Source: an uncultured Aquimarina sp.
Lineage (GTDB): Bacteria; Bacteroidota; Bacteroidia; Flavobacteriales; Flavobacteriaceae
Reading direction: 5' to 3'
DNA length: 64,000 nt
Assembly: GCA_947493035.1 (NCBI GenBank)
Contig: CANLOW010000001.1
Location: 248,001 to 312,000, forward strand
The translations under genes and the position numbers were made by a program. The notes beneath the pieces were generated by a model that saw only the letters and a program-made list of their open reading frames with translations, made no database searches and was not told the origin of the DNA. Positions 10,958 to 26,918 of this stretch are shown in pieces; the stretch's first letter is position 1; the number at the start of each line of letters is the position of its first letter.

Positions 10958-12769
10958 ATGAGTTTAATTACACCTAAAGACGTTTCTTCTATCTTAAAAA
11001 TCGAAAAATTCGGTTTTTTAAGCCATTTTGTTTCGTGGATTATTTTAAAAATCACCAAGCTATCTGCCATCAGTGATCATTACACAAAACATCAAAACAA
11101 AAGCTGTACTGAATTTGTAGATATTTGTCTTGATGAGTACAACATCAACTTTAAAATCCCCAAAAAAGACTTAAAAAACATCCCAAAAGAAGGGGCTTTT
11201 GTGAGTATATCTAATCATCCATTCGGTGGCATTGAAGGATTGATTCTCTTTAAAATATTTCACGAAATCCGTCCCGACTATAAGGCTGTCGCTAACTATT
11301 TATTACAAAGCTTCAAACCACTTAGCCCTAATGTAATTCCTGTAAATCCTTTTAGTGAAGCACAGTCAAAAAAATCAAGTACTAGTGGATTAAAAGAAGC
11401 TATTCTTCACTTAAAAAAAGGAATGCCTTTTGGCGTTTTTCCAGCTGGAGAGGTAAGTAATATCAAAAACGGTAAATTTTATGTAGATCAGCCATGGAAT
11501 GACGGGATCATACGCTTGATTCAAAAATCGAAAGTCCCTGTATTACCTTTATATTTCCATGGGAAAAACAGTAATTTATTCTACAAATTAGCTAAAATTC
11601 ACCCTCTTCTTCAAACTGCCAAATTACCTAGCGAACTATTCAGTCAAAAAAACAAAACAATATACGTTCGTATTGGTAAACCTATCAATGTAAAAAAGCA
11701 AGCTAAATACGAAGACCTATTTTCTTACAAAGCTTTTTTACGAAACAAGACCTACATACTAGCTAACACTTTTGATAAGGATAATTTACTAAAAAAGATT
11801 CCTAAAAAAATGAAGAAGAAAGTAAAGAAAAAGCCTAAAAAAATCGCCTTAGCTATTGAACCTTCTATCATAAAAAATGAAGTTACCCAATGTTTAAGCA
11901 AAGGTTTGGGGCTATTTAAAAGTAATAGTTATGAAATCATTTTAGCTAAAGCTGAAGACATTCCAAATATACTTAATGAAATCGGTCGTCTTAGAGAGGT
12001 AACTTATCGAAATGTTGGAGAAGGGAGCAATAAGGCTTTAGATCTAGACAAATACGACATGTATTATCGCCATATGTTTTTATGGGATCATGAAACAAAT
12101 CAAGTTATGGGAGCTTACCGTATGGGACTTGGCAATGAGATATTCGAAAAACATGGCATAAAAGGCTTTTACTCTCATAGTTTATTTCGTTTTGAACCAG
12201 AATTACACTCTATGATGTCTCAGTCTATAGAAATGGGACGTGCTTTTGTCAGAGACGAATATCAAAAAAAGCCTTTTCCTTTATTCCTTCTTTGGAAAGG
12301 AATTGCTTATTGTACTCTTAAATTTCCAACACTAAAATACTTAATCGGTGGTGTTACTATTAGTGATCAGTTTAGCGACTTTTCAATGTCATTAATGGTA
12401 GAATTCATGAAATCTAACTATTACGATCCTTTCGTTGCACAATATGTTCGCCCTAAAAAAGAATATAAAGTCAGTTTAAAAGACCACGAAAAAGGATTTG
12501 TCTTTGATCATTCTGAAAAAAGCTTAAAACAACTAGATGATATCATTGCTGATCTAGAACCTAATGCTCTTCGCATCCCCGTTCTGCTTAAAAAATACAT
12601 TAAGCAAAATGCCAAAGTGATCGCCTTCAATGTTGACCCTTTATTTAACAATGCCGTTGATGGCCTTATGTATATTAAAATTGCTGATCTTCCTGAAAGT
12701 ACCATAAAACCATTATTGGAAGAAGTGCAAAAAGAATTACTTTTTCAAAATAAAATTACCGATAATTAA
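10958..12769 (+). CDS. olsF: OlsF-like bifunctional aminolipid acyltransferase
   Basis: A 603-residue fusion of two acyltransferases. Residues about 70-270 form a PlsC/LPLAT-type O-acyltransferase (SISNHPFGGIEG, GVFPAGEVSN, VPVLPLYFHGKNS). A Lys-rich linker (KKIPKKMKKKVKKKPKK) follows, then from about 320 a GNAT-type N-acyltransferase of the OlsB/hemolysin-like kind (IGRLREVTYRNVGEGSNKALDLDKYDMYYRHMFLWD, MGAYRMGLG, IEMGRAFVR). Known OlsF proteins of Flavobacteriia use such a fusion to N- and O-acylate ornithine or glycine into phosphorus-free membrane lipids; the exact amino acid here is not readable. The GTG at 10919 overlaps the -7 element, so I use the ATG at 10958. Its 3' end overlaps the convergent carbamoyltransferase gene by 33 bp. 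Confidence 0.85.
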   Translation: MSLITPKDVSSILKIEKFGFLSHFVSWIILKITKLSAISDHYTKHQNKSCTEFVDICLDEYNINFKIPKKDLKNIPKEGAFVSISNHPFGGIEGLILFKIFHEIRPDYKAVANYLLQSFKPLSPNVIPVNPFSEAQSKKSSTSGLKEAILHLKKGMPFGVFPAGEVSNIKNGKFYVDQPWNDGIIRLIQKSKVPVLPLYFHGKNSNLFYKLAKIHPLLQTAKLPSELFSQKNKTIYVRIGKPINVKKQAKYEDLFSYKAFLRNKTYILANTFDKDNLLKKIPKKMKKKVKKKPKKIALAIEPSIIKNEVTQCLSKGLGLFKSNSYEIILAKAEDIPNILNEIGRLREVTYRNVGEGSNKALDLDKYDMYYRHMFLWDHETNQVMGAYRMGLGNEIFEKHGIKGFYSHSLFRFEPELHSMMSQSIEMGRAFVRDEYQKKPFPLFLLWKGIAYCTLKFPTLKYLIGGVTISDQFSDFSMSLMVEFMKSNYYDPFVAQYVRPKKEYKVSLKDHEKGFVFDHSEKSLKQLDDIIADLEPNALRIPVLLKKYIKQNAKVIAFNVDPLFNNAVDGLMYIKIADLPESTIKPLLEEVQKELLFQNKITDN

Positions 12770-14425
12770 CACATCTATTCCTGTAGAAAAGAAGCATCTT
12801 AAGGCGTCTTGAGGAGATTCTACCACAGGCTCTCCTTGTATATTAAAGCTTGTATTTAAGACAACAGGAACTCCTGTCTTATTACCTAGTTTTTTAATTA
12901 GGTCGTAATACCTAGGATGTAATTCTTTTTTAACCGTTTGCAATCGAGCGCTACCATCTACGTGTGTCACCGCAGGAATAATAGCTTGTTTTTCTTGCAG
13001 TACATTACATACTTTTAACATAAACGGAGCTTCTACATCTAAGTCAAAAAAATCGTTTTTAGCTTCAAGAATAGTAGATGGAGCAAAGGGACGGTAAGCT
13101 TCTCTAAATTTCACTTCCGCATTTATTTTATCTTTCATATCCTTAATAGCTGGGTTTGCCAAAATACTTCTACTTCCCAGTGCTCTTGGCCCAATTTCCA
13201 TTGTCCCTTGAAACCAACCTATTATTTCACCATCATTTAAAAGCTTTGCCGCTTCTTCACAAATATCATCATGATATTCGTAATTCAACTTAGCTGCTTT
13301 TATTGCCTTTTCTATTTCATCGTTGGTATAACTAGTACCTACATATGGATTATCATGAACAAAATTTCGCTCTTTCTTAAAAACACCGTTGTACAAATAA
13401 TATGCCGCGCCAATAGCTGTACCATTATCTCCTGCAGCAGGCATAACGTATACATCTTTAAATTTACTTTCTCTTACAATACGACCATTCATAACACTAT
13501 TTAAAGAAACACCTCCCGAAATAACTAAATAATCTGCTTTCGTCTTATCATGAAGAAAATCACAGATTTCCAACACTTTATTTCCTAAGACACGCTGAAA
13601 GGCAGCAGCAACATCCATGTGACGCTGTTCAAAAGGTTCATTCGGCTTTCTAGGTTGTCCAAAAATCTTGTAAAATTTATCTGAGCAACGTCTCCAATGC
13701 ATATTTTGGTAATTGAAATAACTTAAATCTAATTTCAATTGCCCCTTATCGTTTACTTGAATTATTTTTTCAACTTCGTTTAAAAACACATTTGGATCTC
13801 CCATCGGTGCTAAACCCATCGTTTTCCCTTCATCATAAGAAGTTTTAAAACCACAAAATTGAGTGACGCTTTCATAAAAAGATCCTAAAGAATGAGGAAA
13901 AAAACTTTCACTAATGCATTCAATTTTATTGCCCTCTCCGTAACCCAACCAACTTGTAGCCCATTCTCCTGAACCATCGATACCAAGCAATGCTGCTTTT
14001 TTATATGGCGAAACAAAAAAAGTTCCGGGAGCATGGCTATAATGATGCGGTATTAAATGTACTTTAGGGCCATTTTTTTTGGTTACCCAGTGATGTCTAT
14101 ACCAATTCCAAAAACTTTTTTGTTTATTAAAAGCGTGAATAAATTCGTGATTAACAAAAGCTTTTATACTTTTTGGATGTACTAAGCTATAACCAATCTT
14201 TCGCAATAAGTTATGAGTCGGCTTAATTGATACTGCAATATGATCGATATCTTTCTTAGTAATGTTTGCTATTTCCAAACAACGATCAATAGCTTTTTGA
14301 GGAAAGACACGTGTATGCTTATCTCTATTTAACCTTTCTTCTTCTATAGCAGCAATTAACTTTCCATTAATTATAATACACGCAGAAGAATCGTGAAAAT
14401 AATAGTTTAGTCCCAGTATGATCAT
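12737..14425 (-). CDS. carbamoyltransferase, NodU/CmcH family
   Basis: A 562-residue O-carbamoyltransferase-like protein. The N-terminal Kae1/YrdC-like (ASKHA) half has MIILGLNYYFHDSSACI, EEERLNRDKH, LIPHHYSHA and GIDGSGEW; the His pair and Asp of these motifs bind metal and nucleotide in the family. The C-terminal half has VISGGVSLNSVMNGRI, GWFQGTMEIGPRALGSRSILA and VPVVLNTSFNIQGEPVV. Family members transfer carbamoyl from carbamoyl phosphate to hydroxyls of Nod factors, antibiotics or surface sugars. Substrate here is unknown, but the neighbouring glycosyltransferases point to a glycan or glycolipid. It is divergent from the formyltransferase gene (45 bp between starts) and overlaps olsF tail-to-tail. 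Confidence 0.88.
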   Translation of the reverse strand: MIILGLNYYFHDSSACIIINGKLIAAIEEERLNRDKHTRVFPQKAIDRCLEIANITKKDIDHIAVSIKPTHNLLRKIGYSLVHPKSIKAFVNHEFIHAFNKQKSFWNWYRHHWVTKKNGPKVHLIPHHYSHAPGTFFVSPYKKAALLGIDGSGEWATSWLGYGEGNKIECISESFFPHSLGSFYESVTQFCGFKTSYDEGKTMGLAPMGDPNVFLNEVEKIIQVNDKGQLKLDLSYFNYQNMHWRRCSDKFYKIFGQPRKPNEPFEQRHMDVAAAFQRVLGNKVLEICDFLHDKTKADYLVISGGVSLNSVMNGRIVRESKFKDVYVMPAAGDNGTAIGAAYYLYNGVFKKERNFVHDNPYVGTSYTNDEIEKAIKAAKLNYEYHDDICEEAAKLLNDGEIIGWFQGTMEIGPRALGSRSILANPAIKDMKDKINAEVKFREAYRPFAPSTILEAKNDFFDLDVEAPFMLKVCNVLQEKQAIIPAVTHVDGSARLQTVKKELHPRYYDLIKKLGNKTGVPVVLNTSFNIQGEPVVESPQDALRCFFSTGIDVLIIGNFILKK

Positions 14426-14470
14426 TTTGTTGGTTTTTTGTCAGCTAATGTATACAAAAACTTATATTTT

Positions 14471-15088
14471 ATGCCAAAAAAAATAATGAGCCGAAATACA
14501 CAAAAAATTAAATGGGCTTTTATGGTCTCTGGCTGGGGAAGAACTGCGGTAAATGCTTTAGAATTATTCGAAAAGTCAACTTTTAATTTTAGTGAAATCA
14601 GCCTTCTCATTTATGACGAAATTCCATGTGGCGCACATGAAAAATCAAAAGAAATGGGTATTAAATCCATACAGGTTTCTCGCAAGAATTTCAAAAATAG
14701 CACGCTGCACCAAAAACACTTACTTAAAGTACTAAACGAATATCAAATTGATTTTATATTCATGCTAGCCTATAAATACCGTGTTAAAAAAGAGCTACTT
14801 AATGCATTTCAAAATCGTATCTTAAACATACACCCTTCTCTATTTCCTAGTTTTTTAGGAACACAAACAGCTATTCAGGACGCATTAGATTATGGTGTAA
14901 AAATCACAGGGATTACAACTCACATTATAGACGAAGAATATGACAAAGGAGTCATACTAGCTCAAGAACCAATCCGAATAAATGACTCTGATGATTTCGA
15001 AACATTATATGTGAAATTTATTGACAAAGGCAAAAAAGTGATTGAAGATACAATCTTACTTACAGAACAGCGCTTTGACAACCAATGA
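14471..15088 (+). CDS. formyltransferase family protein (PurN-like)
   Basis: About 205 residues with the folate-dependent formyltransferase fold. The catalytic triad regions are visible: Asn and His in LNIHPSLFPSF and Asp in HIIDEEYDKGVILAQEP, as in GAR transformylase (PurN). The first half is less typical (WAFMVSGWGRTAVNALELF; IPCGAHEKSKEMGI), so it may formylate an amino-sugar or another amine instead of GAR. I chose ATG 14471; ATG 14486 (MSRNTQ) is an alternative and an upstream TTG is unlikely. It is divergent from the carbamoyltransferase and upstream of glycosyltransferases, fitting a sugar-modification role; if this is the only PurN in the genome, that reading would be wrong. Confidence 0.7.
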   Translation: MPKKIMSRNTQKIKWAFMVSGWGRTAVNALELFEKSTFNFSEISLLIYDEIPCGAHEKSKEMGIKSIQVSRKNFKNSTLHQKHLLKVLNEYQIDFIFMLAYKYRVKKELLNAFQNRILNIHPSLFPSFLGTQTAIQDALDYGVKITGITTHIIDEEYDKGVILAQEPIRINDSDDFETLYVKFIDKGKKVIEDTILLTEQRFDNQ

Positions 15089-15220
15089 TATCAGATAAAC
15101 ATCAATAAAACTTAAGTTGACAATTAAAAACACTCATACTTTTTTACAATATTTTAAGACCGAGCATTTGTAAGGTTGAGGATAAATTACGACAACAGAT
15201 GCAAAAGAAGGTCTTTTGCG

Positions 15221-15682
15221 ATGAAGTTATTTTTGTCTTTCACCATTTTTATAATGTCATTTTCAAATAAGAAAATGTATGTTACTAATTATTATGACTC
15301 TGGCACCCCTAAGTCTGAAGGGTGGCAATTGAATGGGAAAATGGAAGACTATTGGACTTTTTTTCATGAAAATGGAAATATCGCTTCCAAAGGAGCTTTT
15401 AACATGGGCGCCAAAAAAGGCTACTGGTATTTCTATGATACTTCTGGAAAAAAAGCTAAAGAAGGACATTACCTAAACAATAAACCTCATCAATGGTGGG
15501 TTTATTATTATGAAAATAGTTACGAAAACTGTTTATATCAAAATGATAGTAAAACCAGATTTTGTTTGACTTATGAGAATAATACTATCACTAAAGCTAA
15601 AAAATATGTGAATGACGTATTTTTGCAGCAATGGACAAGCATCCCTAGTTTTAAACGAGACAACCCCGATTTCAAATTTTGA
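15221..15682 (+). CDS. MORN/YwqK-like repeat protein
   Basis: A 153-residue protein with an N-terminal hydrophobic stretch (KLFLSFTIFIMSFS) that may be a signal peptide or anchor. It then has three to four MORN-variant (YwqK-like) repeats of the type NYYDSGTPKSEGWQLNGKM, FFHENGNIASKGAFNMG and FYDTSGKKAKEGHYLNNKP. Such proteins are frequent in Bacteroidota and are usually exported, function unknown. A frame opening at a TTG at 15176 would hide the signal-like N-terminus, so ATG 15221 is preferred. The stop overlaps the TTG start of the next glycosyltransferase by 4 bp, implying coupling to the glycan genes. Confidence 0.65.
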   Translation: MKLFLSFTIFIMSFSNKKMYVTNYYDSGTPKSEGWQLNGKMEDYWTFFHENGNIASKGAFNMGAKKGYWYFYDTSGKKAKEGHYLNNKPHQWWVYYYENSYENCLYQNDSKTRFCLTYENNTITKAKKYVNDVFLQQWTSIPSFKRDNPDFKF

Positions 15683-16374
15683 ATACTCCTTTAATAAAAG
15701 TTATTATACCTGCAGTCAATGAAGAAGCATCGATTGCTAAAGTTATCGCGGAGATTCCTAAACATATTTCGGAAGTAATCGTCGTTAATAATGGTTCTAC
15801 AGATCAGACTAAAAAAGTAGCTCAAAAAGAAGGCGCTACCGTATTAGACGAACCACAAAGAGGTTACGGAAACGCATGTCTTAGAGGTTTACGCTATTTA
15901 GCTGCATTTGATACTCCTCCAGATATTGTTGTTTTTTTAGATGGTGACTATAGTGATTATCCTGAAGAAATGCCAAAGCTAATAGCACCAATAATTAATG
16001 ATCATATAGATTTAGTAATTGGAGCACGAAAACCAGAATTACAAGAAAAAGGTAGCATGACAATACCTCAACGATTTGGAAATTGGCTAGCAACCACCTT
16101 AATGAGATGGTTTTTTAATGCTCAATTTACAGACTTGGGTCCTTTTAGAGCTATCAAATATGACAAATTAGTTTCGTTAAAAATGCAAGATCAAACCTAT
16201 GGATGGACCGTAGAAATGCAATTGAAAGCACTCAAACAAAACCTTACCTACACAGAGATTCCTGTTAGGTATAAAAACAGAATAGGAACCTCTAAAGTTT
16301 CAGGTACGCTTAAAGGCGCTATATTAGCCGGCGTAAAAATTTTAAGTTGGATTTTTAAATATAGTTTCAAATAG
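15679..16374 (+). CDS. family 2 glycosyltransferase (dolichyl/undecaprenyl-phosphate type)
   Basis: A 231-residue GT2 enzyme without membrane helices. Motifs are VIIPAVNEEASI, VVNNGSTDQTKKVA, GYGNACLRGL, VFLDGDYSDYPEEMP (metal-binding DxD-like) and GWTVEMQLKALKQN. It resembles dolichyl/polyprenyl-phosphate glucosyl- or mannosyltransferases, which load a sugar on a lipid carrier for use by a membrane transferase. The start is a TTG that overlaps the stop of the MORN gene (TTGA), with no better in-frame ATG near. It is 4 bp from the next GT2 gene. The sugar-phosphate lipid it may make could feed the polytopic transferase at 17854. Confidence 0.82.
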   Translation: MNTPLIKVIIPAVNEEASIAKVIAEIPKHISEVIVVNNGSTDQTKKVAQKEGATVLDEPQRGYGNACLRGLRYLAAFDTPPDIVVFLDGDYSDYPEEMPKLIAPIINDHIDLVIGARKPELQEKGSMTIPQRFGNWLATTLMRWFFNAQFTDLGPFRAIKYDKLVSLKMQDQTYGWTVEMQLKALKQNLTYTEIPVRYKNRIGTSKVSGTLKGAILAGVKILSWIFKYSFK

Positions 16375-16378
16375 CCTC

Positions 16379-17854
16379 ATGTATTTAACCATTATCATAG
16401 TGTATACCCTAGCACTAACGATTATTTTTCTTTATAGTTTGAGCCAACTCAACCTGCTCTTTGGATACTTAAAATCTAAAAAAACAAGCCCTGTTGACGC
16501 TCCTCTTTTCGATTTGAGTAAACCAGAAGAAATTCCTTACGTAACTATACAGCTTCCTGTTTTTAACGAACTTTACGTAATGGAGCGACTTCTTGACAAT
16601 ATAGCTTTATTAGATTACCCTAAAGACAAACTTGAAATTCAGGTATTAGACGATTCTACAGACGAATCTGTAAATACAACTGCAGCTAAAGTTACGAAAC
16701 TAAAAGCTACAGGTATAGACATTAAACACATCCACCGAACCAATAGAGAAGGTTTTAAAGCCGGAGCACTGAAAGAGGGGTTAAAAGACGCTAAAGGTGA
16801 ATTTATTGCCATTTTTGATGCTGACTTTTTACCTGAACCCGATTGGCTACAAAAGACAATACCTCACTTTAAAAACCAAAAGATAGGAGTTGTGCAAACT
16901 CGTTGGGGGCATATTAATCGCGATTATTCCTTATTAACTAAAATTCAAGCGCTATCGTTAGATTATCATTTTACAATGGAGCAGCGAGGACGTAATTTCA
17001 AAAAGCACTTCATCAATTTCAATGGTACCGCAGGTATTTGGAGAAAGACCTGTATTGAAGATGCTGGAAACTGGCAAGGAGATACATTAACAGAAGATCT
17101 AGATCTTAGCTATCGAGCACAATTAAATCAATGGGAATTTAAATATCTTGAAGATGTGGTTACTCCTGCCGAATTACCTATGATTGTTAGTGCTTCTCGC
17201 TCTCAACAATTTCGATGGAATAAAGGAGCTGCAGAAAATTTCAAAAAAACATATAAGAGAGTATTACAATGTGATCACACTCCTTGGAAAACTAAAATGC
17301 ATAGTTTTTTCCATCTTTTAAACAGCTCTATGTTTATTTTAATTTTATTAATGGCGATCCTTAGTGTTCCTGTTTTATATATCAAAAACTACGAGCCTTA
17401 TTTTAATTTATACTTCAATATTACGAGTGTATTTGCTTTAAGCTCTGTAATTTTCTTTGTCAATTATTGGGTAAGTTATAAAAATGTGCATGGAGGTGGA
17501 TTTAAAAACTTCTGGAGTTACACAGGATTATTCTTAACCTATTTTTCAGTCGCCATGGGCTTCTCACTCCATAACACTATTGCGGTACTAGAAGGTCATT
17601 TCGGTAAAAAAAGTGAATTTGTTCGCACACCTAAATTCAATATGAAAAAGCTTTCTGACAAATGGAAAGGCAATAAGTATATCAATAAAAATATTTCTAA
17701 ACATACTTTCTTTGAAGCTATATTAATGCTATACTTTGCTTTTGCCCTTTATAGCGGTATTCACATGGGAGATTATGGTCTATTTGGTTTCCATTTGATG
17801 CTGTTTTCTGGTTTTAGCTTTGTTTTCTTTAAATCTGTAACTGATAAATTGTAG
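16379..17854 (+). CDS. processive-type family 2 glycosyltransferase, membrane-bound
   Basis: A 491-residue membrane GT2 enzyme of the cellulose synthase/ceramide glucosyltransferase-like class. It has an N-terminal membrane helix (1-25), a cytosolic catalytic domain with LDDSTDES, IFDADFLPEPDW, TEDLDLSYRAQLNQW and QQFRWNKGAAEN (the D, DxD, TED and QxxRW set), and four C-terminal membrane helices (about 310-345, 350-370, 385-400, 450-490). The QxxRW motif is typical of processive or lipid-acceptor enzymes. It shares one base with the start of the next gene (TAGTG). The product could be a glycolipid; the sugar is unknown. Confidence 0.87.
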   Translation: MYLTIIIVYTLALTIIFLYSLSQLNLLFGYLKSKKTSPVDAPLFDLSKPEEIPYVTIQLPVFNELYVMERLLDNIALLDYPKDKLEIQVLDDSTDESVNTTAAKVTKLKATGIDIKHIHRTNREGFKAGALKEGLKDAKGEFIAIFDADFLPEPDWLQKTIPHFKNQKIGVVQTRWGHINRDYSLLTKIQALSLDYHFTMEQRGRNFKKHFINFNGTAGIWRKTCIEDAGNWQGDTLTEDLDLSYRAQLNQWEFKYLEDVVTPAELPMIVSASRSQQFRWNKGAAENFKKTYKRVLQCDHTPWKTKMHSFFHLLNSSMFILILLMAILSVPVLYIKNYEPYFNLYFNITSVFALSSVIFFVNYWVSYKNVHGGGFKNFWSYTGLFLTYFSVAMGFSLHNTIAVLEGHFGKKSEFVRTPKFNMKKLSDKWKGNKYINKNISKHTFFEAILMLYFAFALYSGIHMGDYGLFGFHLMLFSGFSFVFFKSVTDKL

Positions 17855-19254
17855 TGGATAAAATTCTTCAATACAAATGGACTCCTTACATAACAATTGT
17901 AGTAAGTCTTGTATTGTACGTCTTATCATCTCGATGGATACCTAGACATCATTTTTATGAAATGTCTATTGTATGGTTGATACTTTTTGGTCTATCATGG
18001 ATTATTTTAGAATCTAAAAAAACAACCTTATCTAATATCCTTCTTATAGGGATTATCTTTCGTTTACTATTAATAGATCTCCTCCCTTGGATGTCACAAG
18101 ACTACTTTCGTTTCATTTGGGATGGAAGGCTATTGTTTGACGGAATTAATCCTTATCTCAGCACTCCGCTAGAACATATCGAAGCTAACAGTTTCCCTGT
18201 CAACCATGCTGAACAGCTTTTCAAAGGAATGGGATCATTGAACGCCAAACACTACACCAATTACCCTCCAATGAGTCAATTAGGGTATTGGATTGCTGCT
18301 CTATTTGGACGTGATTCTATTTTAGTTAGTGTTGTTACCATGCGAGTTTTATTAATATTAGCTGATATTGGTACTTTTATATATGGGGTTAAAATATTAA
18401 GTATTCTAAAACTACCTTCAAAAAACATTGGTCTCTATTTCCTAAATCCTTTTGTTATTTTAGAGCTTACTGGAAATCTACACTTCGAAGCCTTAATGGT
18501 ATTTTTCCTAACAATCAGTCTTTATTTTATCTTAAAAAAGAAATGGATTTTAGGGAGTGTTTTATTTGGGATATCTGTAAACGTGAAATTACTACCCTTA
18601 ATTCTAGTTCCTGTATTTGCGCGTTTCTTCTTAAAACTACCTATAAAAAATCACACTAATATCCGAAGCTTTTTCAGTATCGAAAAAAGTCAGTTTCTAA
18701 AATATCTCTTTTTTGTATTTACCATTTTAGGAATCAATTTTGCTCTATTCGCACCTTTTATATCTTCTGACCTTATTCAAAATTATAGTATCTCTGTAGG
18801 ACTATGGTTTAAAAATTTTGAATTTAATGCCAGCCTCTATTACATCGCTAGATGGATAGGCTATCAAATAACGGGTTGGAATATGATTGCTGTTACTGGT
18901 AAATTAATGCCCGCTTTTGCTGTACTAGGTATTTTCTTGATTAGTATTTTCCGTAACAATGAAAAGAAGGAAACTCTATTAGTAAGCTTACTTTTCTCTT
19001 TTTCTATTTATCTTTTCTTCACAACTACAGTTCACCCATGGTATTTGGCCATCCCTTTAATAATTTCCTGCTTCACTAGATATAGCTTTCTTTGGGTATG
19101 GACTGCTTTAGTTATTTTATCCTACAATGCTTACCTAGACCCTAATCATTGGGAAGAAAACTTGTGGTTTGTAGGATTGGAGTATTTAGTTGTTTTTGGG
19201 GTAATGGCTTTTGAATTATTGAAATCTAAAAACACAACAACTGCTATTCAATAA
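17854..19254 (+). CDS. polytopic GT87/mannosyltransferase-like glycosyltransferase
   Basis: A 466-residue membrane protein with about 10-12 hydrophobic helices. The first large loop carries acidic motif residues in WMSQDYFRFIWDGRLLFDGINPYL and NYPPMSQLGYWIAALFG, typical of GT-C transferases that take sugars from polyprenyl phosphate. FTTTVHPWYLAIPLI near residue 390 is another family-like segment. The GTG start overlaps the upstream stop by one base. Together with the two preceding GT2 genes it forms a coupled set: lipid-linked sugar donor, glycolipid synthase and GT-C transferase on the outer face of the inner membrane. Confidence 0.78.
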   Translation: MDKILQYKWTPYITIVVSLVLYVLSSRWIPRHHFYEMSIVWLILFGLSWIILESKKTTLSNILLIGIIFRLLLIDLLPWMSQDYFRFIWDGRLLFDGINPYLSTPLEHIEANSFPVNHAEQLFKGMGSLNAKHYTNYPPMSQLGYWIAALFGRDSILVSVVTMRVLLILADIGTFIYGVKILSILKLPSKNIGLYFLNPFVILELTGNLHFEALMVFFLTISLYFILKKKWILGSVLFGISVNVKLLPLILVPVFARFFLKLPIKNHTNIRSFFSIEKSQFLKYLFFVFTILGINFALFAPFISSDLIQNYSISVGLWFKNFEFNASLYYIARWIGYQITGWNMIAVTGKLMPAFAVLGIFLISIFRNNEKKETLLVSLLFSFSIYLFFTTTVHPWYLAIPLIISCFTRYSFLWVWTALVILSYNAYLDPNHWEENLWFVGLEYLVVFGVMAFELLKSKNTTTAIQ

Positions 19255-19389
19255 CTTGAAATACAATTTTAGAACTAGACATATTATCTAAACTTATTTT
19301 CTTAAAATTAAGAAGATGTTTAAGACCAGGTGAAAGAATTAATACTCGCCTTTATTATATATTGCAGATTCATTTAACTATTGAACCTA

Positions 19390-20403
19390 ATGGATCCCTT
19401 TGCTCATTTTTCGACTGGAGCGGTTATCGGCAAACTATTCCTTTATGATATTATATCTAAAGAATTGGGGGATAAAAACGCTTTAATCATTAGCTTACTT
19501 CTTGGGGGTATTTTGGGTATTTTACCAGATATTGATATTCTTTATAAAAAATTTATTTCTAATATTAAATATTTAGAAATCCATCGCACCTGGACACATT
19601 CTATTTTTTCACATATTGTAATAGCTTTTTTTTTCTGTTATTTATTTTGCCAGATCACACAAACAACATTCGAAATCTCTTATCAAAATATCAAACTCTT
19701 TTTTGCTGCTTTCATCATTTTATTTAGTCACATTTTTTTAGATGCCCTAACATCTTGGGGCGTTTTCTATTTTTACCCTTTTAAAGTACAATGGTCATTA
19801 AAAAGTATGTCAGTAGTAGACTTGGTTTTCGACTTTTTTCTACTTGTTCAACTCATTTTACTAACCTTAAACCTCCAGTCTTACATTCCCTTCTTTATTG
19901 CTATTTGTTATTTAATTTTTTCTTTAATTAATAGAGAAACATACATAAAGCCGCTATTTAAAAGAGAACTTAAAAAGCAAGAAATAATCTACAGTGACTT
20001 ATTTATAAAACCTGTTTTTTCTAACGCTTTCATTTGGACTTGTATTGTAAAACAGGGAGATAAATATTATACAGGGTATTATTCTTTATTCCAAAACAAG
20101 AAATCAATCGAATTTTCCACCCATTCTAGAAATGAAATATTAGCCAACAATAGCGGATATTTAGAATCACAAGAGCTAATACACCGAATTAAAAAAGTCA
20201 CATCTGACTGGGTCTCTTTTACTGTGCTAAACAAACGTTTATTTATTAATGATGTTCGATATGGCTTTAAAACATTTTCACCTGACGAAACACGCTATGC
20301 TGTATCATATGAAATCATAGATGAAAAAGCAGATGTAATTTCTCATATCAATCCATTACCTAACTGGTATAAAATAATTTGGAACAGATTATTTGCAAAA
20401 TAA
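19390..20403 (+). CDS. YdjM/YbcI-type membrane metal-dependent hydrolase
   Basis: A 337-residue protein of the LexA-regulated YdjM/DUF457 type. The N-terminus MDPFAHFSTGAVIGKL, GILPDIDILY and HRTWTHSIFSHI supply the conserved His and Asp residues thought to bind metal in the membrane. There are about five membrane helices up to residue 185. The C-terminal 150 residues are soluble and beta-rich. An in-frame TTG 9 bp upstream is possible, but ATG 19390 fits the family start. The substrate is unknown; some relatives are linked to phospholipid hydrolysis. It stands apart from the glycosyltransferases by 135 bp and ends tail-to-tail with the YiiX-like gene, whose stop abuts it. Confidence 0.8.
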   Translation: MDPFAHFSTGAVIGKLFLYDIISKELGDKNALIISLLLGGILGILPDIDILYKKFISNIKYLEIHRTWTHSIFSHIVIAFFFCYLFCQITQTTFEISYQNIKLFFAAFIILFSHIFLDALTSWGVFYFYPFKVQWSLKSMSVVDLVFDFFLLVQLILLTLNLQSYIPFFIAICYLIFSLINRETYIKPLFKRELKKQEIIYSDLFIKPVFSNAFIWTCIVKQGDKYYTGYYSLFQNKKSIEFSTHSRNEILANNSGYLESQELIHRIKKVTSDWVSFTVLNKRLFINDVRYGFKTFSPDETRYAVSYEIIDEKADVISHINPLPNWYKIIWNRLFAK

Positions 20404-21315
20404 TCAAGCTTCACAAAATTCACAGTCCTTATGCTTTTTTACTTTATAAGTATCCTTTTTTTCTAAATTAAGAGCATTTGCTATATCTCCTGGTGTTATA
20501 AAATTACTTAAGTCAATTTTATCTAATAAGGAAAGTATACCAGGGTTCTTTACATTCAAATTACCAATAGACATTTTCAGTTTTTTTAAGCTACCCATTT
20601 CTGAATCTAAAAAAACAATATTATTATTACATGCATCTTGTACGGACCTCCCTTGATTAATTTCTGAAATTAATACATCGCTCGAGTCTAATACTGATTT
20701 AAGGTCTTTTCCTTGACCTCCTTTATGATCTACTGTTTCAAATAGTTCTTTTTTCTCCACAACGTTTCCTAAAATGCTAGTATCTCCTAGAAAGATAATA
20801 TTCGTACCTAGATCGTCTTCAATTTGACAAACATCTCTATAAGTCCTGTAAATCAACTCTGAACAAATGAGATATCTATTTTTAGGGTCTACAACTTTAA
20901 TAGCTGTATTGATAATATATATAAAGCCTATTTTAAGGAAATTTAGTTTCGAAGGTATTGCTGGCAACAACTTCTTTAGAAATAGTATTAGCAATAATAC
21001 TAACTGAATTTTAGCATATGGTCGATTTCGATAACTTTCTTCTATGTTATCAATTATTTTTTTAGCTGAATCTTCAGACAAATTTTTAACCCTGAAATTG
21101 GTTACAGCATATGACTTTTGCTTTTCCAAACTATCTTCTAGTTTTTTCCTTACCAAGCCTTCTGCTACCATTTCATAGATATAACCATCTTTATCGTAAA
21201 TAGAACAGTGATTATAATCCTTATGATCTAACGATCTGATTATATTTGCTATTGTGTCGTGTGCATGATGAAATATAATATCTCCACGCTTCAGTTGTTT
21301 TATAAATGCCTCCAT
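20404..21315 (-). CDS. YiiX/LRAT-like permuted NlpC/P60 (papain-fold) hydrolase
   Basis: A 303-residue protein. Residues 8-160 match the permuted papain-like fold shared by YiiX/YebB hydrolases and LRAT/HRASLS phospholipid acyltransferases: LKRGDIIFHHAHD near the start, His36 in DYNHCSIYDKDG, a Glu in YIYEMVAEGLV and the nucleophile Cys151 in NRYLICSELIYRTYRD. A hydrophobic helix (about 103-137) sits between His and Cys and could contact membrane lipid. The C-terminal half has no recognised domain and ends in a Lys/Cys-rich tail (KKHKDCEFCEA). It is divergent (55 bp) from the cyclooxygenase-like gene. A role in releasing acyl substrate is inferred from that context; a peptidase or amidase role is equally open. 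Confidence 0.72.
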   Translation of the reverse strand: MEAFIKQLKRGDIIFHHAHDTIANIIRSLDHKDYNHCSIYDKDGYIYEMVAEGLVRKKLEDSLEKQKSYAVTNFRVKNLSEDSAKKIIDNIEESYRNRPYAKIQLVLLLILFLKKLLPAIPSKLNFLKIGFIYIINTAIKVVDPKNRYLICSELIYRTYRDVCQIEDDLGTNIIFLGDTSILGNVVEKKELFETVDHKGGQGKDLKSVLDSSDVLISEINQGRSVQDACNNNIVFLDSEMGSLKKLKMSIGNLNVKNPGILSLLDKIDLSNFITPGDIANALNLEKKDTYKVKKHKDCEFCEA

Positions 21316-21370
21316 TGATACGCCAAAGATGCAAAAATGAATCTAAACTGAACTAATTACACTAAAAACT

Positions 21371-22990
21371 ATGCTTTTAAAACGTTTTCTTTCTAGAATT
21401 ATCATTAAAGCCAATATAGATACTAAGCCCCCAAGGCCTTTTAATCTATCCATGTATTCACCTTCTCCATCTCCAAATATTTTTTCAGAGAACAACTGTA
21501 TGCCTAAAAAAAACATTGACTATAAATCGTATGACAAATGGCATTTATCAAATTATACGTCTTGGGATAGCTTAACCGACGAAACATTCTCTACTCGGCT
21601 GTTACCTCCTATAACAACAGAAAAAGCAAAAAGCTTACCTCCAATCGACGAAGTTGTAAGCATATTGATGCGTAATCAAAGACCTATGAAATCTTGCCAT
21701 CGCACATCTCTTCTGTTTATGGGTTTTGCTCAATGGTTTACAGATGCTTTTTTACGAATTGATATTCGTGATTTAAGAAAAAACACCTCAACTCATGAAA
21801 TAGATCTTTGCCAAATTTACGGGCTTAATAGACAGACAACAGACCTATTAAGAAGTAATAAATTAGGCTGTTTAAAAACACAAATAATTGACGGAAAAGA
21901 ATTTGCTCCTTTTCTATTCAACAATGATCTATCAATAAAAGAAGAATATAAAAACCTTCAATATTTAAATTCATTAAAACACACCTATAGAGATCAGTGG
22001 AAAAATGAAGAAAGAAAAAAACTGTTTTTCGTATTTGGTTTAGACCGTGGAAATACGACAATTACGCATACTGCTATTAATACTTTATTTATAAGATTAC
22101 ATAATAAAGTGGCTAGGTTATTACATTCTAAATATACAAATTGGGACGATGAAAGGTTGTTTCAAACTACTAGAAATATATTAATTGCTACACTAATAAA
22201 AGTCACTATCGAAGATTATGTAAACCACCTCAAACCATTTTCTTGGATGAAGTTCAAACTAGATACCACTTTTGCTGAAAAATCTAATTGGTATCGCGAT
22301 AATTGGATTTCTACGGAGTTTAACTTAGCCTATCGCTGGCATTCTTTAATCCCTGACAACTTTGAATTTAAAGGAAAGACATTAGATACAGCTAATAGCT
22401 TTAGATTCAATAATAATATTGTTCTAAAAAATGACCTTACTTCTATTTTTGAAACTATATCTTATCAAAAAGCAGGTAAAATAACTTTAGGCAATACACC
22501 TGATTTCCTTAGAGAGGTTGAGATGATGGGACTTTATATCTCTCGCGCTTCTCAATTAGATACTTTCGATGTCTACAAAAACCAATTTTCGACCACATGG
22601 GATAAAGCATTTAGAAAAAACACAATCAATTCCTTTTCGGATGTCACTAAAGATGTAGAAATGCAATATAAACTAAAACAACTATATAAAACTCCTGATA
22701 AAATGGATTACACTATCGGTTTAATAGCCGAAGACCAATCAAATATGTTTATGTATGAAGATGCTCCAATTTTAGGAAGAACAATGCTAAACTTAGTAGC
22801 TTCAGATGCTTTTTCTCATGCTTTAACGAACCCTATACTATCAAACAACGTTTATGATAAAAAAACATTTAGTAACGAAGGGTGGGAACTTATTCACCAA
22901 TTTACAACCCTAAAGGATATTATTGATTTTGTAGAAGAAAAAGACGCTAAAGTAAGTTTCAACTATAATGATTTTCCTAACAAACTATAA
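21371..22990 (+). CDS. cyclooxygenase-like haem dioxygenase (animal haem peroxidase superfamily)
   Basis: A 539-residue homologue of prostaglandin H synthase catalytic domains. From YTSWDSLTDETFSTRLLPP to the C-terminus it tracks COX almost block by block: FAQWFTDAFLR (COX FAQHFTHQFFK), HEIDLCQIYG, RLHNKVARLL (REHNRVCDLL), QTTRNILIATLIKVTIEDYV, and EFNLAYRWHSLIPDNF (EFNHLYHWHPLMPDSF). Tyr321 and His324 match COX Tyr385 (radical tyrosine) and His388 (proximal haem ligand). The distal haem His207 is Asp125 here, while Gln203 is kept as Gln121. There is no signal peptide, EGF module or membrane-binding helices. Family knowledge predicts haem-dependent fatty-acid oxygenation. It overlaps the convergent catalase-like gene by 28 bp and is divergent from the papain-like hydrolase. 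Confidence 0.9.
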   Translation: MLLKRFLSRIIIKANIDTKPPRPFNLSMYSPSPSPNIFSENNCMPKKNIDYKSYDKWHLSNYTSWDSLTDETFSTRLLPPITTEKAKSLPPIDEVVSILMRNQRPMKSCHRTSLLFMGFAQWFTDAFLRIDIRDLRKNTSTHEIDLCQIYGLNRQTTDLLRSNKLGCLKTQIIDGKEFAPFLFNNDLSIKEEYKNLQYLNSLKHTYRDQWKNEERKKLFFVFGLDRGNTTITHTAINTLFIRLHNKVARLLHSKYTNWDDERLFQTTRNILIATLIKVTIEDYVNHLKPFSWMKFKLDTTFAEKSNWYRDNWISTEFNLAYRWHSLIPDNFEFKGKTLDTANSFRFNNNIVLKNDLTSIFETISYQKAGKITLGNTPDFLREVEMMGLYISRASQLDTFDVYKNQFSTTWDKAFRKNTINSFSDVTKDVEMQYKLKQLYKTPDKMDYTIGLIAEDQSNMFMYEDAPILGRTMLNLVASDAFSHALTNPILSNNVYDKKTFSNEGWELIHQFTTLKDIIDFVEEKDAKVSFNYNDFPNKL

Positions 22991-23964
22991 ATTTCATCAA
23001 GGTCTTTTAGATAATTTTCGCTGTATTCAGAAGAAGCTTGATTTCTAAAGTCTGATAATGCTTTATAAACAACCTTTCTAGCATTGTTAAGTTCTCCAAC
23101 TGCTTGATGGGCTTTTACACTATTAATTATATTAAAACGCAACACTTTGCTTAACTGATTATCATCAATCAACTCTTGCTTAGGAATTATTAATTGACCT
23201 ATTTTGACAAACGGGAATTTATCTTCATTCCATTCTACAGAAACATCATTTACAGGGGTTTCATTTTCGTTATCAAAAAATTGAACACAAAAGTCGAATA
23301 CAATATCTTTATTCTCTACACATGACTTTAGATTCTCCCTTAAAAAATTATCGTTCCGACTAGCATTAAATTTATGATTAGATCTTACAGCAGGAGTCAA
23401 CTTATATTTCACTACAGAATCTCCTAATCGAAATGGAGCAGCACTCCAATATTCAGTCTGACTTAGATCATTATGCCGACCTCTAACTTGAAGTACTTTC
23501 CTAAGAGTTTTAAGATTAAAAAGCATCCATTTAGCTACACCTAAAAACGAACCATCTACAGTGCTATGAATAACATCTCTGAATGATTTTAATGTACCAA
23601 ACGGTAATATTGGACTAGACATTAACAGTAAATCATGATTCCCTTTTTCTAAAGAGTCTTCAGTACTCATACTTTCAGGAACCCCAAAGACCTTAAATGC
23701 GATCCCCCTAACATCTGCTTTTTTATCTGATTGAATTTTATGTGATCCATTTGAAAACCTGACTACAGCTTTATATTCATTTGCTTCACTAAACAAACCT
23801 ACTCTAGCCTTATCCAAAATATCTTTATTTATTTTAAATGTTGCTTTAAGAACCCCTAATGTTTTGGGGTGAGCATCTCTCGACAATTGACCTCCAACTG
23901 AAGACTTTAACATGTAAGCCTTCATCTTTTCTAAGATATCAGCTATGTGATTTTCTGAACTCAT
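22963..23964 (-). CDS. catalase-fold haem protein (allene-oxide-synthase/SrpA-like)
   Basis: A 333-residue protein, much shorter than true catalases (about 480). It keeps the catalase core: a distal His32 in RDAHPKTLGVLKATF (catalase V-H-A-K-G), RFSNGS and DVRGIAFKVFGV, and the proximal haem ligand motif R-x3-Y at Arg296-Tyr300 (NARKVVYKALSDFR). Small catalase-like proteins of this type include coral allene oxide synthase, which converts fatty-acid hydroperoxides, and organic-peroxide reductases. It overlaps the cyclooxygenase-like gene tail-to-tail by 28 bp and is 11 bp downstream of the histidine kinase gene on the same strand. Conversion of a hydroperoxide made by the COX-like enzyme is the natural hypothesis. 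Hydrogen peroxide detoxification is less likely given the size. Confidence 0.82.
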   Translation of the reverse strand: MSSENHIADILEKMKAYMLKSSVGGQLSRDAHPKTLGVLKATFKINKDILDKARVGLFSEANEYKAVVRFSNGSHKIQSDKKADVRGIAFKVFGVPESMSTEDSLEKGNHDLLLMSSPILPFGTLKSFRDVIHSTVDGSFLGVAKWMLFNLKTLRKVLQVRGRHNDLSQTEYWSAAPFRLGDSVVKYKLTPAVRSNHKFNASRNDNFLRENLKSCVENKDIVFDFCVQFFDNENETPVNDVSVEWNEDKFPFVKIGQLIIPKQELIDDNQLSKVLRFNIINSVKAHQAVGELNNARKVVYKALSDFRNQASSEYSENYLKDLDEIYSLLGKSL

Positions 23965-23975
23965 ATAAGTGCAAA

Positions 23976-25757
23976 TTAAAAACTTAATTTAACACGCACC
24001 CTTGTTCCTTTTCCTTCTGTAGTGTTTAATTCGAATTCACCCTCTAACAATTCGGCTCTCTCCTCTAGACCTCTTAACCCAAATGACGATGTCTTTATCT
24101 TTTCTTTATTAAACCCTATCCCGTCATCTATAACTTCTAGTGTTAAAATATCTGATTGACAATCTAGCTTTACAATTACTTCCGTTGCTTTAGAATATTT
24201 CAACGCATTAGTAGTTAATTCAGAAGAGGCTTTAAATATATACTTTGCAATATTTTGAGGAATACCACTTTCTAAAACTCCTGTTTTTAATAGCTTAATA
24301 TCTATTGAAGTTACACTATTCATTCGTTCACAATAGTCTTCTATTGAATGCAAAAAGTTTTCAGAATCGATATTAGGAACATATAATGAATTTAATAAAA
24401 ACCTATAGTCTTTCCTAAATGCATCCAATATTGATTCTACATCAGGTGTCAAGATATCTTTGGTTATCAAACGTAATTTAAGAGCTTCTAAATATCCACC
24501 AAAAGAATCATGCACATCACTAACTATAGCGTTTTGTTGCTCTTCTTGATTGATTGATAATTCTTCATGAAACTCATTCTTCAACTTTGTATTTTCTTCT
24601 TCCAAAGAAATTGCTTCAAACTCTTTATCAATAGATTGCTTCATAATATAGAAAATGATAACAATGACTTCTATCAAAATCCCTAAGTATACAGATTGAA
24701 ATAAGAAATATGTAATACTCTCATTATCGAATGAATTTTTAAAATCGCCTGTGTTAGCAAAAATTCCTAATACAGGTAAAAGAAAAGCTACAAATAAATA
24801 TACTGGAATGACACCTGCTATTACTAAAATACAATGTATTGCTAAAGAAAGTAACGATGCATAGTTTAAAACCGATTGAGCATAAAATTCAACATTATAA
24901 ACATTACCCATGTAGCCATCGAAGATGGCATATATTGCACCTAAGAAACAAGCAGTACTGATAGCTAAATAAATCCATTTACAAAACTTTGTCTTTTTAG
25001 TATAATTATAATAATTCCTAAAAAACTCGGATAAAGCCATTGTAGAAAGCAGCATAAATACATGATCCAGACCAAATTTCATAATCCATTCGTCTGCTAA
25101 CACCCATTGACTAAAAATCCCTGTGCTAATTAGATATTCTACAATTAATAAAAACAAATGTATAGCATACCATAATATTGGATAAACTCTCTTATACAAG
25201 AAAAGTATTGCTGCAGAAATAAGAAGTACAAACAAACTAAGGGCATAGCCTCCTATGAAAAAATAATCTTTTTGCTGTTGTTTTGCAAAAGACGTATCTG
25301 TGTAAGTATAAATATTAAACTCTGTCCTATAGCTTAGTTTATCTTTAAACCTTACAAACAATTTTGAAGGAGTATTTGCTGGCAAAACTTCAATTATAGG
25401 GAATCTATATTCCTTCTCTTTTCGTAAATCTTTAAGTTGATGAATAGTTGTTCCATCGTATGAATAAAATTCTAGTTCTTCGAACAATGAATTCTCTATA
25501 GAAATAAAGTTTCTTTGATCTAACTTTTGGATATTAAAAACAAGCCACCCTGCATTTTTACCTTTTAAAAACTTGTAGGTTTCAATGTCAAAATCCTTAT
25601 TGAATTTACCTAACTCATATAATTGGACTGCCTCTTCAATACTTAAAGTATCATCATCTATCTCTAACTGTTGAATATTTCCCTCTACAGAAAATTGTGC
25701 TAAAGCAGTCCTTAACACAAATAAAAATAAAAACAGTAACTGAATATTTCTTTTCAC
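23976..25757 (-). CDS. 7TMR-DISM sensor histidine kinase (NarL/HisKA_3-type)
   Basis: A 593-residue membrane kinase. A signal peptide (1-20) precedes a periplasmic beta-rich 7TMR-DISM extracellular domain type 2 (about 25-160), seven membrane helices (about 165-372), a coiled coil (375-410), a phospho-acceptor region with His416 in SDVHDSFGGYLEALKLRL, and an HATPase domain (about 495-593; SELTTNALKYSKA, DDGIGFN, FGLRGLEERAELL). The HD motif after the coiled coil places it with NarL/DesK-like kinases, matching the LuxR-type regulator 11 bp upstream. DISM domains sense small ligands in the periplasm. The operon continues into the catalase-like gene, so the ligand may be an oxidised lipid; that is inference. 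Confidence 0.9.
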   Translation of the reverse strand: MKRNIQLLFLFLFVLRTALAQFSVEGNIQQLEIDDDTLSIEEAVQLYELGKFNKDFDIETYKFLKGKNAGWLVFNIQKLDQRNFISIENSLFEELEFYSYDGTTIHQLKDLRKEKEYRFPIIEVLPANTPSKLFVRFKDKLSYRTEFNIYTYTDTSFAKQQQKDYFFIGGYALSLFVLLISAAILFLYKRVYPILWYAIHLFLLIVEYLISTGIFSQWVLADEWIMKFGLDHVFMLLSTMALSEFFRNYYNYTKKTKFCKWIYLAISTACFLGAIYAIFDGYMGNVYNVEFYAQSVLNYASLLSLAIHCILVIAGVIPVYLFVAFLLPVLGIFANTGDFKNSFDNESITYFLFQSVYLGILIEVIVIIFYIMKQSIDKEFEAISLEEENTKLKNEFHEELSINQEEQQNAIVSDVHDSFGGYLEALKLRLITKDILTPDVESILDAFRKDYRFLLNSLYVPNIDSENFLHSIEDYCERMNSVTSIDIKLLKTGVLESGIPQNIAKYIFKASSELTTNALKYSKATEVIVKLDCQSDILTLEVIDDGIGFNKEKIKTSSFGLRGLEERAELLEGEFELNTTEGKGTRVRVKLSF

Positions 25758-25768
25758 TTTAAGACTTC

Positions 25769-26407
25769 TTATTGCAACAAAATACCATTTTCAAACCCAA
25801 ACTTTAAAAGATCAGGAATTCTCTTTGTATTTGTCATTTCATAAAGCTGTCTTTTATGCGTTTTCAAAGAGCTTACTGAAATATTGAGGTGTGTGGCAAT
25901 TTCTCCTTCTGTTTCACCAGAAAATTGATATAAAGATTTCAAAATATTAATCTTATTTTCTGTAAACTTCACTCCATTAATTTCCACAGATAACTTTCTA
26001 GATCCCTTACCTACAGAAATCTTGTTAGAAGTAGTGCTGTAATAACAATCAGAAATTATATCATGAAAACCTTTGAAAGAACTCTCTTTACTCAAGAAGG
26101 ACTCTACTTTATGTTGTTCAGCTAATGATCGATTGAAGGCATCATTTAGTGAAGTCAACATAATAATCTTAAAAGCTGAGATATCTTTTCTTATTTCACT
26201 TAAATGATCAAAAGAACTTGTTCCATTAAAATTAACATCTAAAATCAGTATATCTATACTATTACTGTTGCAGAAAACTTCTAGTTCATTTAAATCCGAC
26301 AGTACAGCTTTTACACTATACCCCTCTTTCATATTTAAGTTTTCAGCTAATGCCTCAGCAAAAAACAGATTATCATCGGCTATTACTATTCGGATATCAC
26401 TATTCAT
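25769..26407 (-). CDS. NarL/LuxR-family response regulator
   Basis: A 212-residue two-domain regulator. The receiver has the acidic pair Asp11-Asp12 (VIADDN), acceptor Asp57 (ILDVNF), Thr85 and Lys107. The C-terminal LuxR-type helix-turn-helix spans about 145-205 (EGEIATHLNISVSSLKTHKRQLYEM). It begins the operon with the 7TMR-DISM kinase and the catalase-like protein. A perfect 10-bp inverted repeat lies 39-60 bp before the ATG and could be its own binding site or an attenuator hairpin. Confidence 0.9.
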   Translation of the reverse strand: MNSDIRIVIADDNLFFAEALAENLNMKEGYSVKAVLSDLNELEVFCNSNSIDILILDVNFNGTSSFDHLSEIRKDISAFKIIMLTSLNDAFNRSLAEQHKVESFLSKESSFKGFHDIISDCYYSTTSNKISVGKGSRKLSVEINGVKFTENKINILKSLYQFSGETEGEIATHLNISVSSLKTHKRQLYEMTNTKRIPDLLKFGFENGILLQ

Positions 26408-26906
26408 CTTGGGGGAGAAATATTAATTAAATGCAAATTAATAAAAAAATCATACTAAAGTATGATTTCTATCACCTAACCTCAAATTACTTTTGTACCA
26501 GACAAATCAGCATACTCTTTTATTAGTAAAATAAATCTTAATAAAGAATATGCAACTACATAAAATACAAATTACTAATCATACTTCTTAGAATCACTGA
26601 ATAGTATTGTTGTTAGAAAAGCGGCTTGAATCATTATGGGGGTAAGGATTTTCGGTCGCTTTTTATTTTTTCCCAATTATTTAAACCTAGCTAGATAATA
26701 CCCAAGGACAAAACCTTTATCTATTCCATCAAAAAACAATAGCTTATCTAGTCTCTTTTTAGTCAATTAAGAGCAACTAGAAACCTAAAACAATTGTTTC
26801 GCATCACCTAAAAAGGGTATTTCTACTATAAATTGAAACATATTTTAAACTGAAATAACACTAGAAAAAGAAACAAATATTACTTTTACAGCATCACATA
26901 AACAAA
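26408..26906. other. 500-bp divergent intergenic region with a possible small RNA
   Basis: It contains the palindrome at 26446-26467, a plus-strand -7 element TACTTTTG at 26487-26494 and a hairpin with 7-bp stem AAAAGCG/CGCTTTT (26617-26663) followed by TATTTTTT. The last two could bound a plus-strand transcript of about 170 nt with no open frame. No protein gene is visible. A TACTTTTA box near 26880 may serve the DUF5723 gene. Confidence 0.4.
26446..26467 (-). promoter_or_regulatory. inverted repeat upstream of the two-component/catalase-like operon
   Basis: Perfect palindrome with 10-bp arms, AAATCATACT and AGTATGATTT, separated by AA. On the minus strand the second arm runs into TTTTTTT, so it can be read as an operator for the response regulator or as a terminator-like attenuator in the leader. 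A -7-like TACTTTAG is embedded in it. Confidence 0.5.
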
Positions 26907-26918
26907 ATGATTAAGACT

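Follow-up and report, generated by a model that had tools for sequence, protein, structure and literature searches.

A cyclooxygenase-related dioxygenase and its gene neighbourhood in Aquimarina: a probable two-component-controlled oxylipin cassette

In a stretch of 64,000 nucleotides from an uncultured Aquimarina sp. (contig CANLOW010000001.1, positions 248,001 to 312,000; hereafter the window), a gene for a haem dioxygenase related to cyclooxygenase (COX) lies among genes for a small catalase-related haem protein (CAT), a permuted papain-like enzyme of the C92 (YaeF/YiiX) type, a YdjM-family membrane protein, a sensor histidine kinase (HK) and a response regulator (RR). This set is probably a two-component-controlled oxylipin cassette, and the main evidence that its members share a function is their co-retention in two gene orders. 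The five open reading frames of the initial annotation, their coordinates and the 55-bp gap between the C92 and COX genes were confirmed in the window, and the YdjM gene, absent from that annotation, directly abuts the C92 gene (Table 1). The genes for RR, HK and CAT all run in one direction, separated by 11-bp gaps, which agrees with the earlier grouping of the kinase and the regulator with the catalase-like gene, while the convergent CAT and COX genes overlap by 28 bp. The cassette has a G+C content of 30.5% versus 34.2% for the whole window. Of all 7-kb stretches along the window, sampled in steps of 200 with cassette-overlapping ones counted, 1.8% are equally G+C-poor; the low value fits acquisition from outside.

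Table 1. Coordinates of the cassette features in the window
Feature	Position	Strand	Basis
YdjM-family (PF04307) membrane protein, candidate metal-dependent hydrolase	19381..20403	+	Pfam 93.2 bits
C92 YaeF/YiiX-type permuted papain-like enzyme, candidate lipid acyl hydrolase/acyltransferase	20404..21315	-	Pfam under cut-off; profile match
Divergent start region of C92 and COX genes, 55 bp	21316..21370	.	gap between open reading frames
COX-related haem fatty-acid dioxygenase, 10-DOX-like (putative)	21371..22990	+	PF03098, residue mapping
Small catalase-related haem protein (CAT), candidate hydroperoxide lyase/isomerase	22963..23964	-	PF00199, residues
7TMR-DISM-like sensor histidine kinase (HK)	23976..25757	-	HATPase_c; 7TMR-DISM under cut-off
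NarL/LuxR-type response regulator (RR)	25769..26407	-	Response_reg match

The neighbourhood recurs in six cassettes from five genomes and two genera of Flavobacteriaceae (the window, L002, L003, L004 of genome G456, and L017 and L018, both of genome G454). The COX, CAT, C92 and HK genes are present in all six, so that a survey of neighbouring genes, which the initial annotation had proposed as a check, finds these four together in each of these loci; the lack of a conserved neighbourhood, which would have counted against the reading, was not observed in them. Four of the cassettes (the window, L002, L003 and L004) have the divergent C92-COX order, and the two of G454 are co-directional, with the order HK-RR-CAT-C92-COX in L017 and four HK genes followed by CAT-C92-COX in L018. 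HK is adjacent or next but one to CAT throughout; in G456, where the cassette is spread over the ends of two contigs (C17 with COX and the CAT C terminus, C18 with the CAT N terminus and HK), it stands on the adjoining contig end. That the neighbourhood turns up again in another genus, Wenyingzhuangia, and, within the genus of the window, in a different gene order makes it more than chance.

Full-length COX is rare in the genomes searched. A scan of contigs with short exact peptide patterns, which misses distant relatives, returned three COX relatives, two from Wenyingzhuangia and one from an uncultured Aquimarina. Within the genus of the window, full-length COX was found in 3 of 66 genomes, namely the window genome (G000), G456 and G454 (two copies), with weak partial matches only in two others; the corresponding figures were 1 of 397 genomes for the family and 1 of 395 each for the phylum and the order, the single genome always being that of the window. 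Weak PF03098 matches in other Bacteroidota (partial query cover, about 19-30 bits) were not counted as COX, and the COX-related protein had no phage match at an E value of 1e-5. The C92 profile, at E values below 1e-100, marks 3 of 61 genomes of the genus, the same three as full-length COX; below these rank an additional G454 copy, the third of that genome (E = 4e-19), and weak matches in four more genomes. On the 3' side of the membrane gene at 17854-19254, which is conserved, gene content differs among relatives, as seen when the window (17854-26907) is compared with L018, L095 and L096: G454 holds a cassette at this chromosomal site; G433 (81% complete) has HK and RR there (67% and 60% identical to those of the window), with an unrelated gene replacing the enzymes, up to the contig end; and G425 (69% complete) has neither the cassette nor the HK-RR pair.

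The central gene was correctly recognized from the start as encoding a COX-type haem protein: it matches PF03098 with 136.5 bits, and its closest PDB matches are prostaglandin H synthase 2 chains (E = 3.8e-46), in an alignment that begins at residue 61 and leaves the EGF-like part outside. When the protein is mapped on human COX-2, Tyr385 (Y321), His388 (H324), Tyr348 (Y283) and Gln203 are retained, and the distal His207 is replaced by D125, Gly526 by V476 and Ser530 by A480, with further changes of Tyr355 to Phe and Tyr504 to Thr. A retained Ser530 was ruled out, since the alignment puts Ala480 at that site. The 18 aligned bacterial COX sequences (6 from cassettes and 12 from plasmids, near-copies included and thus not all independent) all carry Asp in place of His207 and Ala in place of Ser530, have either Val or Ile at position 526, and retain Tyr385 and His388; two more distant PF03098 domains in the same alignment keep the distal His. 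According to the available part of a 2026 review (PMC13049297), the 10S-dioxygenase (10S-DOX) of Nostoc punctiforme has F143-t-d-s-F, Ile483 and Ala487 at these sites and forms 10S-hydroperoxides of oleate and linoleate. The window protein has F-T-D-x-F at the distal site, Val at 526 and Ala at 530 along with Tyr348, Tyr385 and His388, and on these residues, those of Nostoc being taken from the description in the review, it is closer to an enzyme of the 10S-DOX type than to a cyclooxygenase. The set of Asp, Val/Ile and Ala argues for a maker of linear fatty-acid hydroperoxides and not of prostaglandins. The label 'eicosanoid-like' is not supported: Gly526, Ser530 and the distal His are replaced in the manner reviewed, in the text available, for the cyanobacterial linoleate/oleate 10S-dioxygenase, an enzyme that forms linear hydroperoxides.

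The second haem protein, CAT, comprises 333 amino acids (aa) and matches PF00199 with 37.2 bits (cut-off, 25); the distal His32 and the proximal Arg296-x3-Tyr300 that had led to its designation as a catalase-fold protein are present. Its nearest solved relative is PDB entry 3e4w, which we take to be an organic-hydroperoxide peroxidase, and a profile search also gives several catalases. Profile matches to viral envelope chains (E = 0.03-0.06) were taken as chance. In a true H2O2 catalase a distal Asn functions together with the distal His; in CAT, the single-sequence alignment sets Ser116 against the second Asn of GNNTP in catalases, and the profile alignment gaps this region differently. The protein does have the short catalase domain, distal His and proximal RxxxY of catalase-related lyases and allene oxide synthases. 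In all 19 CAT rows compared, a count that omits the split G456 copy and three near-identical Paracoccus yeei copies, the distal His is kept, as are the proximal Arg and Tyr, which in the Nostoc HK-01 row are separated by one residue fewer. The distal-Asn site is occupied by Ser, Thr or Asp in all nine COX-linked CATs, versus Asn in eight of the ten others, the exceptions among the latter being G417 and S. fredii. The S. fredii row is nested among the COX-linked CATs of proteobacteria and the G417 row lies next to those of flavobacteria, so that common descent may explain this pattern. The window genome (96% complete) also encodes a KatG-like protein, whose single 766-aa frame contains two PF00141 domains; its presence makes general H2O2 removal by CAT less needed; no second PF00199 catalase was found in that genome.

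A related association exists on plasmids, where 15 records matched COX and the 12 with at least 80% query cover were used (H13-H15 excluded). These 12 are not independent, as they include four from Paracoccus yeei, two from Ruegeria, two near-identical ones from Acaryochloris and three from rhizobia. CAT adjoins COX in seven of them (Methylobacterium, one; P. yeei, four; Ruegeria, two), with a 4-bp overlap in the P. yeei pairs. The Ruegeria CAT genes (L029 and L030, 5789-6856) are annotated 'hypothetical' and their products are catalase-related by alignment, that of L029 having no Pfam match at an E value of 0.01. A cytochrome P450 (P450) gene adjoins COX in three others, from Sinorhizobium medicae, Rhizobium etli and R. 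gallicum. In the COX tree these three rows form a clade (support, 100/99) that joins Paracoccus (99/99), which is read most simply as one lineage having changed its companion. CAT (13 cases) or P450 (3 cases) thus lies beside or close to COX in 16 of the 18 bacterial loci, and this, with the distal His absent from all 18 proteins, suggests that a separate converting enzyme replaces the peroxidase step of animal COX.

A gene annotated as containing an adenylate/guanylate cyclase domain directly adjoins the Ruegeria COX (L029 8524-11526; L030 8510-11533). Of the 115 plasmid records with a CAT match, the surroundings of nine (H17, H18, H19, H20, H22, H28, H30, H32 and H42) were covered, H28 being unannotated; the eight annotated stretches contain no separate COX gene, and two of them carry catalase-PF03098 fusions. 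These are rhizobial proteins (L102 2926-5775 and L105 2866-5694) that keep the distal His, and a gene annotated as a patatin-like phospholipase lies upstream of the L102 fusion. RoxA-like cytochrome c genes occur near CAT in Paracoccus (L026 4045-5907) and S. fredii (L101 5068-6858), perhaps as a second type of haem partner.

The description of the C92 product as a YiiX-like papain-fold protein is supported by a profile of the six cassette members, which matches E. coli YiiX (PDB 2if6; E = 2.2e-6). His36 and Cys151 are invariant in all six, and the C-terminal motif is F-x-TP. The cassette proteins have in common with the YaeF/YiiX enzymes, as far as these are described in the available text of PMC3142127, the GD-I start and both dyad residues, the His and the Cys that follows it, and they appear to differ from them in a longer hydrophobic stretch between the dyad residues and in the C-terminal extension with the TP motif. 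A fatty acid has been modelled into the active site of YiiX, which has been proposed to cleave lipid-amino acid amides; phospholipase activity is documented for a permuted papain-like relative, and LnsA, related to the YiiX group, is required for lipoprotein N-acylation in S. aureus. No plasmid match to C92 was obtained at an E value of 1e-5. The YdjM protein, far above the Pfam cut-off of 29, has a conserved His/Asp set (H9, PDxD at 49-52, H68RxWxHS and H117xxLD121) and no convincing PDB relative, the single match having an E value of 0.44. HK matches HATPase_c with 47 bits (cut-off, 26.4) and 7TMR-DISM_7TM with 26.7, below the cut-off of 29, which the L018 kinase exceeds with 30.6; RR has a receiver domain (51.2 bits; cut-off, 30.2) and a GerE helix-turn-helix match of 18.4 bits, below the cut-off of 23.5.

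From the gene content, the linkage, the residue states and the replacement of CAT by P450 in some relatives, we infer reactions, substrate, product, regulation and cue along the following lines: (i) HK and the NarL-type RR would sense a cue and switch the set on; (ii) C92, with or without YdjM, may act on an acyl lipid, releasing or handling an unsaturated fatty acid; (iii) the COX-related protein, by way of a Tyr321 radical, would add O2 to give a linear hydroperoxide, the likeliest site of oxygenation being near C10 of a C16-C18 monoene or diene; (iv) lacking the distal His, it would have little peroxidase activity, and the hydroperoxide would survive; and (v) CAT may then cleave or rearrange the hydroperoxide to a short-chain alcohol or aldehyde plus an oxo-acid, or to an isomer. 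One FA_desaturase-family match is present in the window genome. The earlier reading of the genes as a linked release-oxygenate-convert set with a sensor is in keeping with the conserved neighbourhood.

A number of observations weigh against this scheme. YdjM is found in four of the six cassettes, being missing from the two of G454, and RR likewise in four, at varying positions, with none found within 21.6 kb of L003 or 20 kb of L018. In G456 the CAT gene is divided between two contig ends, and its N-terminal part (L061 275-961) contains in-frame stops; it may be a broken gene or a mis-assembly. The window C92 scores 24.5 bits against PF05708, just below the cut-off of 27, as does L018 (26.6), with L017 above it (30.3), and the AlphaFold2 models of C92 (4 rows; pLDDT, 47.6) and CAT (3 rows; pLDDT, 37.1) are too poor to use. 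Relatives of C92 occur apart from COX and CAT, both on G454 contig 35 and in G223, the latter also without a kinase of the window type, so C92 need not supply the substrate. The two Acaryochloris COX genes have neither CAT nor P450 within 7 kb on each side. Plasmid records with a CAT match (115) far outnumber those with a COX match (15), which means that the catalase group is not specific to COX. In the genus, the CAT profile matches 9 of 61 genomes: the three with cassettes, G417 (E = 1.9e-76), G448, G439 and three weak cases. In G448 (L040) and G439 (L041) the CAT-like stretch is fused to oxidase domains of the LodA type, with the catalase Pfam match under the cut-off in L040 and absent in L041, and the G417 relative lies near a DyP peroxidase and a flavin adenine dinucleotide (FAD) oxidase, settings that fit removal of peroxide by CAT.

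These oxidase settings, the excess of CAT over COX on plasmids and the presumed organic-hydroperoxide peroxidase activity of 3e4w all speak for a protective CAT, which would remove H2O2 or stray hydroperoxide from the COX-related protein and form no specific product. We regard this as unlikely, given the KatG-like protein elsewhere in the genome, the non-Asn residues at the distal-Asn site of COX-linked CATs (shared ancestry may explain them), the lyase specificity of the Nostoc catalase-like protein as described in the sources available, and the plasmid loci in which P450 replaces CAT, which fit conversion better than peroxide removal. Somewhat less doubtful, though still on the unlikely side, is that C92 takes the last step and transfers the oxidised chain to or from a lipid, an amino acid or a protein, so that the output would be an altered membrane or protein and not a free oxylipin: acyltransferases are found in the permuted papain group, the amide cleavage proposed for YiiX and the N-acylation by way of LnsA point in the same direction, and one C92 relative lacks COX and is accompanied by two-component genes and a CHAT-like protein, but hydrolysis is documented for a permuted relative. 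A true prostaglandin-type cyclooxygenase that uses arachidonate from a host or prey would account for the PDB matches and for the kept Tyr385 and His388; the replacement of Gly526, Ser530 and His207 in all 18 sequences, and the Phe and Thr of the window protein at 355 and 504, make it very improbable. We think it equally far-fetched that the genes are chance neighbours, or hitch-hikers on a mobile stretch, with no shared pathway. The patchy distribution and the low G+C content would suit such an origin, but the set is retained in two gene orders and two genera, and the COX-CAT link recurs on alphaproteobacterial plasmids.

The cassette might also be one arm of a family of two-component-controlled conflict or stress loci with exchangeable outputs, either an oxylipin (C92-COX-CAT) or CHAT/caspase-like proteases, a proposal that we consider quite doubtful. 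In L017 of G454, positions 11483-19258, 3' of COX and in the same direction, hold a run of genes for EAD11/CHAT-like (4-bp overlap with COX), EAD11-DUF4384 and caspase-like proteins; it ends with a 1383-aa gene whose end looks caspase-like by eye, and the sole Pfam match above the cut-off is EAD11 of a 260-aa protein. On contig 35 of the same genome (L062 4924-10848), RR, HK and C92-like genes are joined by a CHAT-like/DUF7019 gene, without COX or CAT; the kinase and regulator are related to those of the window, the C92 has no Pfam match and the CHAT match is below the cut-off. None of the six window proteins matches PADLOC-DB 2.0 at an E value of 0.01. If the proposal were true, a prokaryotic system would have a lipid signal from a COX relative and caspase-like proteases serving one defence response.

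The oxylipin cassette, as we read it, looks like a compact and testable case of regulated oxylipin synthesis in marine Bacteroidota, and a homologous cassette is available in a deposited strain, Wenyingzhuangia aestuarii DSM 105044. The suggested replacement of a built-in peroxidase step bears on the evolution of COX, and the genes for C92 and the two-component system give a first way of asking what triggers the pathway and where its acyl substrate originates. The claim that no bacterial system of this composition had been described stands in part. The core pair is described in N. punctiforme, where a 10S-dioxygenase and a catalase-related 10S-hydroperoxide lyase (Brash et al. 2014, cited through the available parts of PMC13049297, PMC9579011 and PMC9410191) cut linoleate by way of the 10S-hydroperoxide to 1-octen-3-ol (PMC9579011, PMC9410191); among the literature matches listed, in titles and opening parts of abstracts, mostly from outside subscription journals, no C92/two-component COX cassette in Bacteroidota was found.

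Compared with known systems, the window protein has the PF03098 family, radical Tyr and proximal His in common with mammalian COX-1 and COX-2, and unlike them lacks the distal His, Gly526 and Ser530. In the fungal DOX-P450 enzymes, as covered by the available text of PMC13049297, a COX-like dioxygenase is likewise coupled to a hydroperoxide-converting haem partner, but the two are fused and the partner is a P450, whereas in the window it has a catalase fold; the COX-P450 neighbours on rhizobial plasmids look, by analogy, like a separate-gene counterpart of the fungal enzymes. In the catalase-lipoxygenase and catalase-dioxygenase fusions of corals and cyanobacteria, according to the parts available of PMC5617202 and PMC11719350, a small catalase-related protein also processes a fatty-acid hydroperoxide, there made by a lipoxygenase or fused dioxygenase, whereas the window has separate, convergent genes. 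Closest is the Nostoc pair, which, as described in the sources above, shares with the cassette the distal-site Asp, the bulky residue at 526, Ala at 530 and a catalase-related partner encoded by a separate gene. The combination of dioxygenase and catalase-related protein is thus already known, and what the cassette adds is its Bacteroidota host, the C92 gene (usually accompanied by YdjM) and a two-component system in the locus.

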